From positions 1-43,761 of the forward strand of contig JAQGON010000101.1 in assembly GCA_028293565.1 (NCBI GenBank): a stretch of DNA of 43,761 bases, given 5' to 3'. Shown here in pieces: positions 7,031 through 35,830 of this stretch (position 1 is its first letter; every line of letters begins with the position of its first letter). The notes beneath the pieces were generated by a model. It was not told where the DNA came from and made no database searches. It worked only from the letters and a program-made list of their open reading frames with translations. The translations under genes were made by a program, and so were the position numbers. Origin of the DNA: Verrucomicrobiota bacterium (GTDB taxonomy: Bacteria > Verrucomicrobiota > Verrucomicrobiia > Opitutales > Opitutaceae).

Positions 7031-7525
7031 TTTTTTTCACCGCAAAGGGCGCGAGGACCGCGAAGGTCGATCCATCGGATCGGGTGGCCTTCGTGTGCTT
7101 CGTGTCCTTCGTGGTAAAACAAAAAGCGCCCGGATTATTTTCACCCACGAAGAGCACAAAGAGCACCAAGGCCAAACCGGTACTCCACCCGATCGATCGG
7201 CCTTCGCGTGCTTCGCGTCCTTTGCGTTGAACCGATCGCCGGACGATTCTAGGAGGCCAGCACTTCCGCGTGGAATTCCTGCCAGCTGTCGAGGTCGTTC
7301 AGGCGCACCCGAACCTTTTTTCACCGCGAAGGATGCGAGGAACGCGAAGGTCAATTCACGGGGACGGGGCACAGAACCGGTTTGGCCTTCGTGCCCTTGG
7401 TGATCTTCGTGGTGAAAATCATCGGTCGAGCTCAGGTCCGGGAGCTTTTTGTTTTACCACGAAGCACACAAAGGTCACCCCATCCGATGGATCGGCCTTC
7501 GCGGTCCTCGCGCCCTTTGCGGTGA
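7031..7525. repeat. Cluster of imperfect hairpin repeats (CCGCAAAG/CCTTCGCGG type)
   Basis: The 554-base gap between trxB and the DUF5069 gene holds four hairpin units (about 7031-7133, 7138-7232, 7317-7419 and 7452-7525). Each begins with a T-run and a TTCACCGCAAAG- or TTACCACGAAG-like arm and ends with the complementary TTTGCGGTGAA- or TTCGTGGTAAA-like arm. Within the arms GCGAAGG- or CACAAAGG-like words recur every 9 bases or so. All six frames give low-complexity conceptual peptides, so I call no genes here. Related units stand at 16520-16620, 35711-35830 and 36287-36423. Confidence 0.85.
7234..7308. repeat. Partial duplication of the DUF5069 gene 3' end
   Basis: These 75 bases match 7570-7644 at 73 of 75 positions. 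The source block holds the last about 20 codons and the stop codon of the DUF5069 gene plus 15 bases beyond. The copy is a fragment without a coding frame of its own and is embedded in the hairpin-repeat cluster, which suggests repeat-mediated rearrangement. Confidence 0.85.
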
Positions 7526-7557
7526 AAATAAAAACGCCGCCCAGGCCGGGCGGCGTT
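7526..7557 (-). terminator. Rho-independent terminator of the DUF5069 gene
   Basis: A perfect 10-bp stem (AACGCCGCCC at 7533-7542, GGGCGGCGTT at 7548-7557) with a 5-base loop. Read on the minus strand it runs into TTTTATTTT. It lies 28 bases after the stop codon of the DUF5069 gene. Confidence 0.8.
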
Positions 7558-7584
7558 GAACCGATCACCGATCGCCGGACGATC

Positions 7585-8028
7585 CTAGGACGCCAGCACT
7601 TCCGCGTGGAATTCCTGCCAGCTGTCGAGGTCGTTCAGGCGCACGGCGTCCTTGACCGAGCCGTCATCGGACATGCCGTTGCTCTTGAGGACACCCTGGC
7701 GCGTCGCGTCGTCGTGATTGTAGCCGCGCACCGCCGCGTTGTGTTTCTCGACCGCCGCCTTGTCCAGTTTCACGCCGGGTTGCTTTTTGACCCAGGCCTC
7801 GAACTGCGGATAGGTGGGCTTGCTTTCCTTGATGTATTTCAAGGCCGCCTCGCGGTTCAGCCCGAGCGCATCGAGCGTCATCTGGTCGAATCCCTTGCCG
7901 CATCCGGGATAACGTGAATCGAGTTTGCCGCGGGCCTCCAGCGAAGCCTTTTGCCAGAAACGGGGCAGATGCAGCACTCCGAGCGGGCCGGGTGTGCCAG
8001 AGCTGATCAGGGGAACATACGTTGCCAT
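7585..8028 (-). CDS. DUF5069 domain-containing protein
   Basis: A 147-residue cytoplasmic-looking protein with no signal peptide or membrane segment. The stretch LHLPRFWQKASLEARGKL followed by GCGKGFDQMTLDALGL and PTYPQFEAWV matches the DUF5069 pattern as I know it; that family is common in Verrucomicrobia and Planctomycetes and has no established function. The ATG at 8028 gives a full-length domain. Its last 60 coding bases are duplicated at 7234-7308. A strong terminator follows. It stands alone, divergent from the Fur-suf block, so context says little about its job. Confidence 0.8.
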   Translation of the reverse strand: MATYVPLISSGTPGPLGVLHLPRFWQKASLEARGKLDSRYPGCGKGFDQMTLDALGLNREAALKYIKESKPTYPQFEAWVKKQPGVKLDKAAVEKHNAAVRGYNHDDATRQGVLKSNGMSDDGSVKDAVRLNDLDSWQEFHAEVLAS

Positions 8029-14765: not shown

Positions 14766-16433
14766 TCACGGACGCGCTGCCCGCACGGGCGCCAAGCTGC
14801 GACCGGCGAGCGGCACGAAGCCCCACTTCCGCCCCGAAAACAACCCGCGGTCGCTCAGCTTCAGGTCGGGAATCACCAGCAGCGCCATGAACGACAGCGT
14901 CATGAACGGCGCATCGAGCCTGGAGCCGAGGCGTTTCGCCAGGCGGTCGAGCTCCGTATAACGCCGCGCGACCGAGCGGCCGTCGGCGTCGGACATCAGG
15001 CCCGCGATCGGCAGCGGCAGGATTCGCCTCCGGCCCAATCCCACCGCGCTGAGCCCGCCGCGGTGGGAAATCACGAGGTTCACCGCGGCCGCCAGCGCGT
15101 CGTCGTCGGCTCCGACGGCGACGACGTTGTGCGAGTCGTGCGCGACCGACGACGCCAGGGCGCCTGATTTCAAACCGAATCCGCGCACGAACCCGACCGC
15201 CACCGGAGTCAGCGGCCGGTAGCGATTCACCACGGCGATCTTCAGGATATCACGGCGGACGTCGCTCACGATCGCGCCCTCGACCTGCTTCGGAACGACC
15301 TGCGACCACCGTGTGACCAGCTGTCCGTTGAGCGCCTCGATGACGTTGAGTTTTCCCGGGAGCGCCGGCACCGCGAAATCCTGCGCCTGGCGCGGACGCG
15401 CGCGAAATTTGTTCACGATCCGCGCCGGTTGCCGCGGCAGGAGGGTCCGTCCGTGGGCGGCGACCAGTTTTCCGCCCAGCCACGTCCGGCGCACCACGAA
15501 CCGCCGCCAGCTTTCCACCTCGATGAAATCGGCCCGGTCCCCCGCCCGCAGCAGGCCGATCTCGAGGCCGTAATGTTTGACCGGGTTGACCGACGCGCAG
15601 GCCAGCACGTCATAGCGGTCGGCGCCCAGTTTCAGCGCGCGGCGGACGTGCTCGTCGAGATGGCGCCGCATCAGGAGATCCGGGTGGAGATCGTCGCAGC
15701 AAAACATGCAGCGCGCCGGATCGGTCCTGAGCAGGGGCGCGAGCGCCGCGAAGTTTTTCGCGGCCGAACCCTCCCGGATCAGGATCTGCATCCCCGCCGC
15801 CAGTTTGTCCCGCGCCTCGGGCAGGGTGAAACACTCGTGGTCCGTGGTGATCCCCGCCACCGCATAGTTTGCCGCGCTTTCGCCGCGCAGGCCCGGGGCG
15901 TGTCCGTCAACGGGTTTCCCCAGCTCTCTGGCGGCGGCGATCATCGCATGAAGCTCCGGATCGCCGCCGAGGACGCCGGGGAAATTCATCACTTCGGCCA
16001 GGAACCCCACATCCTTCCGCCGGAGCAGCCGTGCCACCGCCTTCGCCCCGAGCCGGGCTCCCGCGGTTTCGAACACCGTGGCCGGCACGCAGGAGGGCGC
16101 GCCAAATGTGAATCTGAAAGGGGTCCTCCGGGCGTCCGCGATCATGTAGCGCACGCCCGCCTCGCCGAGCACGTTGGCGATCTCATGCGGATCCGAAACG
16201 GTCCCGACCGTCCCGTGAACCACCGCGTGCCGCGCAAATTCCGCCGGCGGCAGGAGCGAGCTTTCGATGTGGATGTGGGCGTCGACGAACCCCGGCAAGA
16301 GCAGGCGGCGGCCGCGCGGCCGCGCATCGCGGACAATGCGGCGGATGACGCCGCCCGAAACCTCGATCGTTCCCGGAAATTCGGTCCGGTTCAGCACGTC
16401 GACGATGATTCCCGAAATTCGCTGCGCCCTCAT
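14766..16433 (-). CDS. ade: Adenine deaminase
   Basis: Deaminates adenine to hypoxanthine in purine salvage. The amidohydrolase metal motif FVDAHIHIESS is near residue 60, followed by the family-specific VVHGTVGTVSDPHEIANVLG, GHAPGLRG, TTDHECF and FCCDDLHPDLL, which together distinguish the Ade family from dihydroorotases. The C-terminal domain includes VGADDDALAAAVN. The product is 555 residues from the ATG whose complement is at 16431-16433; an in-frame upstream extension to 16469 is not supported. It is divergent from clpP across a perfect 25-bp inverted repeat and convergent with the protease gene. Confidence 0.93.
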   Translation of the reverse strand: MRAQRISGIIVDVLNRTEFPGTIEVSGGVIRRIVRDARPRGRRLLLPGFVDAHIHIESSLLPPAEFARHAVVHGTVGTVSDPHEIANVLGEAGVRYMIADARRTPFRFTFGAPSCVPATVFETAGARLGAKAVARLLRRKDVGFLAEVMNFPGVLGGDPELHAMIAAARELGKPVDGHAPGLRGESAANYAVAGITTDHECFTLPEARDKLAAGMQILIREGSAAKNFAALAPLLRTDPARCMFCCDDLHPDLLMRRHLDEHVRRALKLGADRYDVLACASVNPVKHYGLEIGLLRAGDRADFIEVESWRRFVVRRTWLGGKLVAAHGRTLLPRQPARIVNKFRARPRQAQDFAVPALPGKLNVIEALNGQLVTRWSQVVPKQVEGAIVSDVRRDILKIAVVNRYRPLTPVAVGFVRGFGLKSGALASSVAHDSHNVVAVGADDDALAAAVNLVISHRGGLSAVGLGRRRILPLPIAGLMSDADGRSVARRYTELDRLAKRLGSRLDAPFMTLSFMALLVIPDLKLSDRGLFSGRKWGFVPLAGRSLAPVRAARP

Positions 16434-16519
16434 CGCTGGGAGAAATGCCGCCCGCCCCGCCGATGGCAACCGGCAACACTCCCGTCCTCCGTGGTCTTGG
16501 TGGAAACAGGCCTGATTTA

Positions 16520-16620
16520 TTCACCGCAAAGATCGCAAAGGTCGCGAAGGTCGCGAAGAACCAATCCCGGTCCCGGCTGAAAAATCCGAACGGATCGACC
16601 TTTGCGATCTTTGCGGTGAA
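16520..16620. repeat. Long hairpin element with perfect 25-bp arms
   Basis: The left arm 16520-16544 starts TTCACCGCAAAGATCG and the right arm 16596-16620 is its exact reverse complement over all 25 bases. Inside, GGTCGCGAA is iterated at 9-base spacing. It belongs to the same family as the cluster at 7031-7525. It lies between the divergent ade and clpP genes, so it cannot be a simple transcription terminator of either. Confidence 0.9.
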
Positions 16621-16697
16621 AACAACGCCGCCAAGGGACGCGGCCAACTTCGAGCTTCCACTTGCCAAGCCGGCGAAGGCCGACAGGTTGGAAACCT

Positions 16698-19099: not shown

Positions 19100-19412
19100 C
19101 GGGTTCGAAAGTAAAACGCGTTTTCAACGCGTTGGACGCTCCGTCGGCCCCTCGAGTCCCGCTCGCACCTCCAGCGCATAGAAACCCGTTCGACAACCTC
19201 AGGGTCTCCGACAACACGCTGCACCTCCCCTCCCGGTAGCAGCCGCCGTCAGGCGGCTGGGCTGATTGCGCTTATTCGGTCGAACGCAGCCGACAGCCGC
19301 CTGACGGCAGCTGCTACCGGGAGGTGGCGTGTTCCCCTCAACGCGCTGGGGCCGCAGGCTTGGGTTTGATCGTTGACGGAGCGGCCAGCGCGTTGGGGCA
19401 ACGCGCTCCACC
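19100..19412. repeat. CAACGCGCTCCACC-type palindromic repeats, interrupted by a REPIN
   Basis: The gap before crcB contains pieces of a repeat built from CCAGCGCGTTG...CAACGCGCTCCACC palindromes and CCGTTGACGGAGCGGCC-like words (19128-19190 and 19325-19412). A different palindromic element is inserted at 19236-19317. The same family makes an array at 27491-27772 and a single remnant at 38868-38932. The last unit ends about 60 bases before the crcB start. No fluoride riboswitch was recognised in this leader. Confidence 0.75.
19236..19317. repeat. REPIN of REP family 2 (GTAG + CAGCCGCC hairpin)
   Basis: Two REP-like units face each other. Each starts with GTAG followed by a hairpin: left CAGCCGCC-GTCA-GGCGGCTG, and on the other strand CAGCTGCC-GTCA-GGCGGCTG. 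The outer arms extend to CTCCCGGTAGCAGC (19230-19243) and its exact complement at 19310-19323. The GTAG head next to a short palindrome is the diagnostic layout of REP sequences moved by RAYT transposases. It splits a member of the surrounding repeat family, which gives a relative age. Confidence 0.85.
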
Positions 19413-20370: not shown

Positions 20371-20474
20371 GTAGCACGGGTCTCCGACCCGTGAAGGTGG
20401 ACTCGAGCTAAACGGGTGTGCTCGACGTTCTCCGTTGGCAGAGTCCGCCCACACGGGTCGGAGACCCGTGCTAC
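20371..20474. repeat. 104-bp REPIN, copy A (GTAG + CACGGGTC hairpin)
   Basis: Both ends carry the same REP: GTAG followed by an 8-bp stem CACGGGTC/GACCCGTG around TCC, in opposite orientation, with about 58 bases between. The whole element is the reverse complement of 34375-34478 with a single difference in 104 positions. It sits between the EamA gene (+) and the S1/P1 nuclease gene (-), both of which end here. Confidence 0.95.
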
Positions 20475-27490: not shown

Positions 27491-27772
27491 AGGTGGAACG
27501 CATTGTCGCAGACCCTGAGCTCGTCGAACGGGCCTCAATGCGTTGGCCGCTCCGTTGACGCCAAAGGACGAACTCGACTCTCCAGCGCGTTGAGGGCAAC
27601 GCGCTCCACCTTCCGATCCGGGTGGAACGCATTGCCCCAATGCGTTGGCCGCTCCGTTGACGTTTCAAGTGGGCTCAACTCTCCCGCGCATTGGACCAAT
27701 GCGTGGGCCGCTCCGTCGGTCTTCCAAGCCTGCTCGACTCTCCAGCGCGTTGAGGGCAACGCGCTCCACCTT
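27491..27772. repeat. Array of CAACGCGCTCCACC-type palindromic repeats
   Basis: Fills most of the 397-base divergent gap between aroB and xylA. Two identical 40-base blocks at 27573-27612 and 27733-27772 each contain the palindrome CCAGCGCGTTG-AGGG-CAACGCGCTCC. Two identical 25-base blocks (CAATGCGTTGGCCGCTCCG...) stand at 27536-27560 and 27638-27662. A/T-variant units GGTGGAACGCATTG alternate with them. All frames give low-complexity peptides, and no gene is called. The promoters of aroB and xylA must lie within or beside the array. Confidence 0.88.
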
Positions 27773-33664: not shown

Positions 33665-33712
33665 GCGGCTTTGCGGAACAATCCGCCTGCCCAAGCGTCA
33701 CCAGACCCCGCC

Positions 33713-34378
33713 ATGAAAATCCCCCGCTCGATCTGCCTGCCGGCGCTGCCCTTCGCGATCCTCGTCCTGTCGCTCGCCGGCTGCCAATCGCCCGCCGAGC
33801 GCCGCTCGGCCGCAATGGAGGAGGCCCGCCGCTCCGTCCCGGCAATGTCCGCCCAGGAAACATTTTTCGACGGAAGGATCGCCGCCCGCATTTCCCTCGG
33901 AAGTTCCGTGGTGGCGCGCGACGACGAATCCAAGGGCCCCGGCGAAAAGGGCAAGGGCGGTCACGCCGGTGGCGGACGCCACCACGGCGGCGGCGGGCGG
34001 CGTGGAGGTGGCGGCGGCGAATCCATGGGCGGCGAATCGTCCGGCGCCGACGCAGGGAGCTCCGATTCGGGCGGCTCCGAGGATCTCCGGCCGCGTTATG
34101 TCGACAGTCCCATGCCGCCCGCGCTGCTCCAGCTTCGCTTGGAAAACACGTCGGCCGAAGCCGTCACCGTCGAGATCCACGACCTGAATTCCGAGCTCGG
34201 AAACTTTGCGACGCGGCCCGACACCTTCACGATCGAACCCGGCGGCAGCGCCGCGCCGGGCGCGATGAAATCCCTGCTCGGGGTCGATTCGCTGGCGCTC
34301 CCGGTCACGCTCACCCTGCGCGTCAGCGGGAAGCTGGAGACGAAGGTGCTGACCCTGCGCCCCGATCCGCAAAAGTAG
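33713..34378 (+). CDS. Lipoprotein with Gly/His-rich linker
   Basis: 221 residues. The N-terminus PALPFAILVLSLAGCQS is a lipoprotein signal with the LAGC lipobox. Residues of about 70-120 are a low-complexity segment rich in glycine, histidine, serine and arginine (GGGRHHGGGGRRGGGGG), which could bind metal ions or act as a flexible tether. The C-terminal about 90 residues (PPALLQLRLENTSAEAVTVEIHDLNSELGNF...) look like a small beta-sandwich similar to Ig-like modules. Family not recognised. Its TAG stop codon is part of the GTAG head of the REPIN that follows. Confidence 0.8.
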   Translation: MKIPRSICLPALPFAILVLSLAGCQSPAERRSAAMEEARRSVPAMSAQETFFDGRIAARISLGSSVVARDDESKGPGEKGKGGHAGGGRHHGGGGRRGGGGGESMGGESSGADAGSSDSGGSEDLRPRYVDSPMPPALLQLRLENTSAEAVTVEIHDLNSELGNFATRPDTFTIEPGGSAAPGAMKSLLGVDSLALPVTLTLRVSGKLETKVLTLRPDPQK

Positions 34379-34478
34379 CACGGGTCTCCGACCCGTGTGG
34401 GCGGACTCTGCCAACGGAGAACGTCGAGCCCACCCGTTTAGCTCGAGTCCACCTTCACGGGTCGGAGACCCGTGCTAC
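34375..34478. repeat. 104-bp REPIN, copy B
   Basis: The same element as 20371-20474 in opposite orientation, with one difference (C in place of A after CGAGC on this strand). The outer REPs are GTAG plus the CACGGGTC/GACCCGTG hairpin. The first GTAG supplies the stop codon of the preceding lipoprotein gene. Confidence 0.95.
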
Positions 34479-35196: not shown

Positions 35197-35706
35197 ATGA
35201 AAACCATCGAGCTGAGCGATGAGGTTTATGATGAGCTGCAGAAATTGGCGACGGGATTTCACCGGTCGCCTGACGAGGTTCTCGCCTCGCTGCTCAACGT
35301 TCCGGGCGGATCCGCGGAAGCGGCCGAACCCCTGGCGGTTTTTATCCTGGGCGCGGAGTTTCGCTCGAGGTTCACCGACGCCGATCGTTATCTCGCGCTG
35401 CTCGGTTGGGTGGCATCGAAGCACACGGCCGATTTTGCCGAATTCATCCGCAGTCTTCCGGGAGGCCGCCGTTTCCTGGGCATGAACCAGGCAGAGATCC
35501 TCGCGACGTGCCGCCACAATCAGGCGCGGCAGATCGACGGCACGCAGTACTGGGCGATCATGAACATCGATGCCGCGACCAAGCGCCGTTTTCTCGCGCG
35601 GGTGCTGGAGTTCGTCGGCTACCGCGAGGAAGTGATCGAATTCGCGTGCGGCTTCATCGGCCAGAAGCGCGCCCCGCGCCGCGCCCGCATCGCGGCAGGA
35701 GCCTGA
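35197..35706 (+). CDS. seqA: SeqA-like replication/hemimethylated-DNA-binding protein
   Basis: 169 residues that align end to end with E. coli SeqA (181 residues). The N-terminus MKTIELSDEVYDELQKLA corresponds to the SeqA oligomerisation domain, which starts MKTIEVDDELYSYI. The C-terminal domain keeps DRYLALLGWV, FAEFIRSLPGGRR, the segment GTQYWAIMNIDAATK (SeqA: GTPYWVITNTNTGRK) and EEVIEFACGFI (SeqA: AELIEKVCGTI). Asn123 matches a SeqA residue (Asn150) that contacts hemimethylated GATC; the second (Asn152) is Asp125. SeqA delays re-initiation and organises new DNA behind forks in Dam-methylating Gammaproteobacteria. Whether this protein reads GATC methylation is unknown; no dam gene is in the window. 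It is a single gene, 131 bases before dgkA, with palindromes at its start. Confidence 0.85.
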   Translation: MKTIELSDEVYDELQKLATGFHRSPDEVLASLLNVPGGSAEAAEPLAVFILGAEFRSRFTDADRYLALLGWVASKHTADFAEFIRSLPGGRRFLGMNQAEILATCRHNQARQIDGTQYWAIMNIDAATKRRFLARVLEFVGYREEVIEFACGFIGQKRAPRRARIAAGA

Positions 35707-35710
35707 GCGA

Positions 35711-35830
35711 CCCGGTTCACCACGAAGGACGCGAAGGTCACGAAAGCCGATCCTTCGGCGTCCCGAACGCCACACGAGGAATCGGACTTCGCGCCCTGCG
35801 TTCTTCGCGGCAGCCGAACTTTCTTTCGTC
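35711..35830. repeat. Degenerate hairpin repeat (CACGAAGGACGCGAAGG type)
   Basis: The arms TTCACCACGAAGGACGCGAAGG (from 35717) and, near 35785-35825, CTTCGCGCCCTGCGTTCTTCGCGG are reverse-complement related with mismatches. Same family as 7031-7525 but more eroded. It fills the gap between the SeqA-like gene and dgkA. Confidence 0.65.

Follow-up and report, generated by a model that had tools for sequence, protein, structure and literature searches.

A family of 104-bp REPINs in a verrucomicrobial genome and the RAYT that probably mobilizes it

Two inverted repeats in a verrucomicrobial DNA are, with high probability, REPINs, i.e. mobile, non-autonomous units which are 104 bp long, have GTAG and CTAC ends and would be moved by a RAYT encoded elsewhere in the genome (G000:C197:15016-15657). 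The DNA analysed, a stretch of 43,761 nucleotides here called the window, corresponds to contig C92 in a genome assembly of 4.155 Mb and 239 contigs. The REPINs and the RAYT constitute a new pair of an already known type, and the evidence for its recent arrival in one species is good. The elements in the window are the following.

20371-20474, plus strand: REPIN copy 1, 104 bp, equal to the family consensus
20371-20393, plus strand: left REP of copy 1 with GTAG tag, 8-bp stem and TCC loop
20452-20474, minus strand: right REP of copy 1, inward-facing
34375-34478, minus strand: REPIN copy 2, orientation opposite to copy 1, 1 mismatch to copy 1
34375-34397, plus strand: REP at the low-coordinate end of copy 2
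34456-34478, minus strand: REP at the high-coordinate end of copy 2
34376-34378, plus strand: TAG stop codon of the upstream gene 33671-34378, taken from the GTAG of copy 2

The inverted pair had originally been predicted as 103/104 identical, and its coordinates and sequence were right; the interpretation drawn from it also holds up, insofar as sequence permits a judgement. Aligned as reverse complements, the copies had 1 mismatch over 104 bp, located at unit position 49 (T at window 20419 in copy 1 versus window 34430 in copy 2, which is G in the direction of copy 1). The inverted match as a whole covered 109 nt at 99%. Each unit carries the 23-nt REP GTAG-CACGGGTC-TCC-GACCCGTG facing inward at both ends; the GTAG tag with a perfect 8-bp hairpin claimed for each REP was found at all four ends. 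These four REPs had 0 mismatches and 100 shuffles produced none; further REPs within 3 mismatches were absent from the window. A single REP folds into the tag, an 8-bp perfect stem and a 3-nt loop. As single-stranded DNA the whole 104-bp unit forms one long hairpin (-45.1 kcal/mol; z = -10.5, 200 shuffles), and its terminal inverted repeats extend over 34 nt at 91%. Copy 1 is flanked by GAAGCGG on one side and by TTCCGCTTC on the other. Both window copies are located between convergent genes.

The exact REP was present 115 times in the genome (59 + 56) and 246 times when up to 3 mismatches were allowed (122 + 124); the reversed control was 0 in both cases. A count of the 104-bp element and its divergence, as had been suggested, yielded at least 42 places with at least 96% identity to copy 1; in 41 of them the match spans the full 104 bases, in one it spans bases 1-100. 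The number is a lower bound since 40 of 159 candidates were scored. Among the matches listed, 165 REPs with up to 4 mismatches resolved into 71 inward pairs and 23 singles. Exactly 104 bp were measured in 52 of these 71 pairs, which were drawn from the places listed, not from the entire genome. Flanks differed between the 104-bp units, and dozens of copies were distributed across many contigs. Some REPs were at contig ends, e.g. C145:2 and C149:5650 of 5700. Some neighbouring units abutted exactly, CTAC against GTAG or GTGG (C85, C143). This fits unit ends at GTAG and CTAC.

Two of the 52 units were identical to the consensus, window copy 1 and the unit at C5:28633; window copy 2 had 1 mismatch. 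In 48 units the distance to the consensus was at most 8 mismatches, in the remaining four it was 19-27. Because divergence from the consensus varies to this extent, the copies differ in age. The window pair is near the master sequence of a family with copies of varied age. The near identity of the pair had been read as a sign of recent mobilization. This needs a refinement: the similarity of the two is not special because both are near the consensus (0 and 1 mismatch).

In agreement with the claim, no Y1/RAYT gene was found in the window. Genome-wide, the Y1-type genes were all on other contigs, i.e. C197, C33 and C78; PF01797 detected two of them and a protein search added the third, on C78. 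The gene on C197 (G000:C197:15016-15657) codes for a Y1/HUH protein of 213 amino acids. It scored 28 bits with PF01797 (cut-off 23) and 78 bits with NF047646, the REP-associated tyrosine transposase model, slightly short of its cut-off of 80. The best solved match was 4er8, the E. coli TnpA-REP (E = 2.4e-4). H125 and H127 of the MPNHVH motif and Y185 were invariant across 27 aligned relatives. Y185 aligns with a tyrosine of 4er8 which we take to be the catalytic one. In an IS200/IS605 element the transposase gene itself is multi-copy as a mobile unit. Here, the assembly contained a single close match to the RAYT; the next one, on C78, was 30% identical over 101 residues.

The search for a Y1-type RAYT flanked by the same REPs, which the original prediction had placed elsewhere in the genome, ended at this gene. 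A 125-bp REPIN of the window family lies on either side of it, the two inverted relative to each other (C197:14794-14918 and 15654-15778), and the stop codon TAG of the gene is within the GTAG of the right-hand REPIN. The 125-bp REPINs have their ends and arms in common with the 104-bp unit. Their middle parts are only weakly alike, and the 104-bp unit is without 20 bp of this middle. The inner REPs of the 125-bp REPINs have a CATGGGTC stem and a 4-nt loop and differ from the stem of the 104-bp unit. More members of 125-127 bp with at least 83% identity to the left REPIN were on C73, C135, C203, C30 and C197; two of them abut in tandem at C197:19604-19857. A tagged palindromic REP, inverted REP pairs which fold together, many copies mostly outside genes and a RAYT flanked by the same REPs, the sequence features by which REPINs are recognized, were all observed. 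Most likely, the C197 RAYT moves this REPIN family. The prediction had called the RAYT active. The gene was present with its reading frame and active-site residues intact and is putatively active.

The other two Y1-type genes were considered as mobilizers and rejected. In 3.0 and 3.8 kb around the C33 and C78 genes, respectively, no REP of the window family was closer than 9 mismatches, and C78 is bracketed by another REP family. The C33 gene (L062:724-1758, minus strand) codes for a Y1-type protein of 345 amino acids (PF01797, 31.7 bits). The Y1-like gene on C78 (G000:C78:19657-20193; L165:1657-2193) had no Pfam match at E 0.001. The family around it, GGAG-CGCGTTG..CAACGCG, is also represented in the window (19389-19409, 27586-27607 and 27746-27767). 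Its exact pattern matched 29 times in this genome, and matches were also present in 7 of 11 congeners and in 2 of the 17 other genomes examined. This family gives the impression of an older resident that is common to the genus. Further repeats were noted in the window. At 19236-19317 there is a third REPIN-like element, GTAG-CAGCCGCC..GGCGGCTG, which faces an inverted partner ending with CTGCTAC; its 38-nt arms are separated by 34 nt. CACCGCGAAGGACGCGAAGG-type repeats, both direct and inverted, are dense at 7031-7644, 16516-16632 and 35699-35764, and positions 7231-7308 and 7567-7644 are a 78-bp duplication at 97%.

How would such a unit move? By analogy with other TnpA-REP proteins, the REP hairpins would form when the DNA is single-stranded. 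The RAYT would then read the GTAG tag together with the hairpin, and its tyrosine would nick near the hairpin and transfer the unit to a new site. For the TnpA-REP proteins of E. coli, S. maltophilia and Marinomonas, GTAG-guided cutting at a dinucleotide beside the REP and strand transfer are described (PMC8266576). The copies are located chiefly a short way downstream of genes, beyond their 3' ends. Gaps between convergent genes are the most frequent site, and an insertion is least harmful there.

The system has several known counterparts. The REPINs of P. fluorescens SBW25 similarly consist of inward REPs and a spacer in one hairpin, have a high copy number and are tied to a specific RAYT which is present once; the REP and spacer sequences are different, however, and the host examined here is probably not a pseudomonad (PMC3116915). 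The GTAG REPs described in Opitutus terrae, likewise a verrucomicrobial genome, are tagged hairpins which occur as dimers, supply TAG stop codons and belong to repeat-specific REPtrons, and the same study reports a family with a GTGG tag, GTAG-20 (PMC3733652). REPtron Sm of S. maltophilia, with a group 3 TnpA-REP, has a 23-nt REP with a perfect 8-bp palindrome and a 3-nt loop, of which loop positions matter for cutting (PMC8266576). The C197 protein differs from it by about 110 residues which precede the part matching 4er8. A literature search returned no publication on the window REP; sequences within figures are not searchable, so it may equal one of the O. terrae families (PMC3733652). A search with the REP strings matched solely a cattle paper.

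Whether a RAYT is matched to its own REP was analyzed at 45 RAYT loci (34 of 41 species-collection loci, those of 10 relatives and that of the C197 gene). Perfect 8-bp hairpins were preceded most frequently by the tags GTGG (20), GTAG (19) and GGAG (14), and TCC (26) was the most frequent loop; each perfect hairpin was counted on both strands and clusters inflate these numbers. Read by eye, 20 of the 45 loci had a tagged hairpin (GTAG, GTGG, GGAG, GTAA or GTAT) whose loop consists mostly of pyrimidines, within 600 bp of the gene, and 25 had no such tagged hairpin within this distance. Shuffled loci contained 0.05 GTAG hairpins per locus. The two closest RAYTs (L063 and G016) are accompanied by CACGGGC stems, the nearest to the stem of the window family. 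In G016, a genome from the same bacterial family, we counted 228 REPs of the form GTGG-CACGGGCN-TCC-NGCCCGTG within 1 mismatch (control 0). Its RAYT is 51% identical to that of C197 and the REP format is similar; the GTGG tag and the last base pair of the stem are different, and the core pattern of the window family had 0 matches there. With one hairpin per locus chosen by eye, RAYT distance and REP distance were correlated (rho 0.44, p = 2e-4, n = 17 loci). After thinning to n = 14, rho was 0.30 (p = 0.015) for tag plus stem and 0.22 (p = 0.059) for the stem alone. This correlation supports the notion that each RAYT serves its own REP. Relatives of the RAYT in other phyla are often accompanied by hairpins which keep this design but have different stems. 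A recurring tag and a pyrimidine-rich loop with stems which change across phyla are a hint at what the enzyme recognizes.

The placement of the units was derived from codon composition, not from gene calls, for 51 of the 71 pairs (18 with short flanks and 2 undetermined ones were left out; a tandem pair on C143 was counted twice). Between convergent coding stretches 27 were located, 21 were between co-directional and 3 between divergent ones. A circular chromosome has the same number of convergent as of divergent gaps, so 27 versus 3 is strongly biased (two-sided, about 8e-6). Published REP placement agrees with it (PMC3733652). This distribution, the convergent position of both window copies and the strong hairpin of the unit may be accounted for in another way. 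The family might be immobile, i.e. consist of relics that are retained because a long hairpin between convergent genes serves as a transcription end or an RNA stabilizer. However, selection which removes insertions elsewhere would generate the same bias. Further, the family hardly occurs outside this species, both the reading frame and the active site of the RAYT are undamaged, and two copies show no difference from the consensus. We consider immobile relics unlikely.

The insertion sites bear on a second alternative. Duplication and flank tests were carried out with 46 of the 52 units; two duplicate C70 flanks and four units called REP-adjacent were excluded; among the latter, a loose text filter had picked out C122:34601. 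Target-site duplications of 2, 3 and 4 bp were seen in 0, 2 and 1 units versus 2.24, 0.80 and 0.20 expected; those of 5-9 bp were absent from the 46 units. A MITE moved by cut-and-paste with a DDE transposase that uses terminal inverted repeats would explain the fixed length and the inverted repeats at the ends. Yet target-site duplications did not exceed chance, the ends are GTAG-tagged hairpins and the bracketed gene codes for a HUH/Y1 protein, which leaves this reading with a very low probability. The flanks of the putative RAYT-mobilized units showed G preferentially at position -2 before GTAG (36 of 46 units). Insertion inside palindromic targets was not supported, despite the flanks of copy 1 given above: left-right flank complementarity was 3.04 on average versus 2.91 in shuffled pairings, and 523 of 2000 shuffles were as good. 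A CGTACG palindrome as target was also dismissed. With 47 of the 52 units, CGT terminated 16 left flanks and ACG started 12 right flanks, and both together occurred in 6 units versus 4.1 expected. The coupling is weak, and CGT and ACG are retained solely as a flank preference. Directly outside 8 of the 46 units (6 right, 2 left) we observed GCTCCAAGG.

C52:8512, C89:4422, C122:3825, C134:30887, C134:45729, C144:551, C186:9769, C194:788: units touching GCTCCAAGG

These eight units have different internal changes. The outside repeat was discarded as a target, as the longer pattern GACCNNNGCCTTGGAGCG was not enriched genome-wide (43 matches versus 45 in the reversed control). GCTCCAAGG at the unit edge is unexplained, either a flank which was carried along or a target preference. 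Finally, simple segmental duplication, i.e. recombinational copying of a 104-bp piece within the window, would produce two near-identical inverted copies 14 kb apart but is hardly credible, as homology stops within about 5 nt of the unit's ends and the copy number and the diversity of flanks exclude it; the original prediction would have preferred it for a genome with only two copies and no RAYT, and this genome contains 246 near REPs and a REPIN-bracketed RAYT.

When did the REPINs arrive? The core REP pattern GTAGNNCGGGTCTCCGACCCG had 131 matches in this genome, and 13 in 5 of 11 congeners, all of them the GTAGGG variant; the 26 other genomes searched had 0. The best RAYT match in a congener was 37% identical (G006), and three congeners (G001, G007 and G011) had none at E 0.001. 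The best match among 37 genomes was in G016 (51%), and among 41 species-collection loci 50% was reached. The gene pair flanking copy 1 is present in 11 congeners, and its spacer is without the REPIN in 11 of 11. The gene before copy 2 (33671-34378) was matched in 11 congeners as far as window 34350-34364. Beyond this, the congeners run into other C-terminal tails; here the gene stops within a few codons on the TAG of the REP. The best REP match in all 22 congener loci had 6-9 mismatches (8 in one shuffled locus). A comparison with empty sites in relatives had been recommended. At the corresponding loci, all 11 congeners lacked both insertions; the spacers were too diverged for an exact empty site. 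In G004 (L198) a different GTAG-tagged palindromic element follows the ortholog of gene 33671-34378 in the same gap as copy 2, as though elements had landed there more than once. G011 contains a 46-bp piece which resembles the unit's end (85%, E = 4.2e-5); accordingly, something related to the unit may have reached the genus. Absence from all congeners and the location of the RAYT's nearest relatives elsewhere favour recent acquisition over loss in 11 species. Probably the RAYT entered the species recently together with its REPs and then seeded the genome, as far as can be judged from sequence comparison.

RAYTs are described as single-copy, vertically inherited genes and REPINs as old, with very low movement rates (PMC8049555). 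Tentatively, and with slightly less conviction than would be needed to prefer it, we suggest that a complete REPtron, a RAYT with two inverted full REPINs, reached this one species from beyond its genus and continues to expand. The same genome would then also house an older, genus-wide REP family with its own Y1-type gene. If true, this would contrast with the published view of RAYTs as vertically inherited, domesticated genes, and nature would offer, side by side, a young and invading REPIN population to compare with an old and resident one. How REPINs spread is an unsolved problem. A RAYT and a REPIN which are missing from 11 sister species, with more than 100 exact REPs in one species, point to a young family, and a young family lets insertion sites, unit ends and cognate specificity be read.
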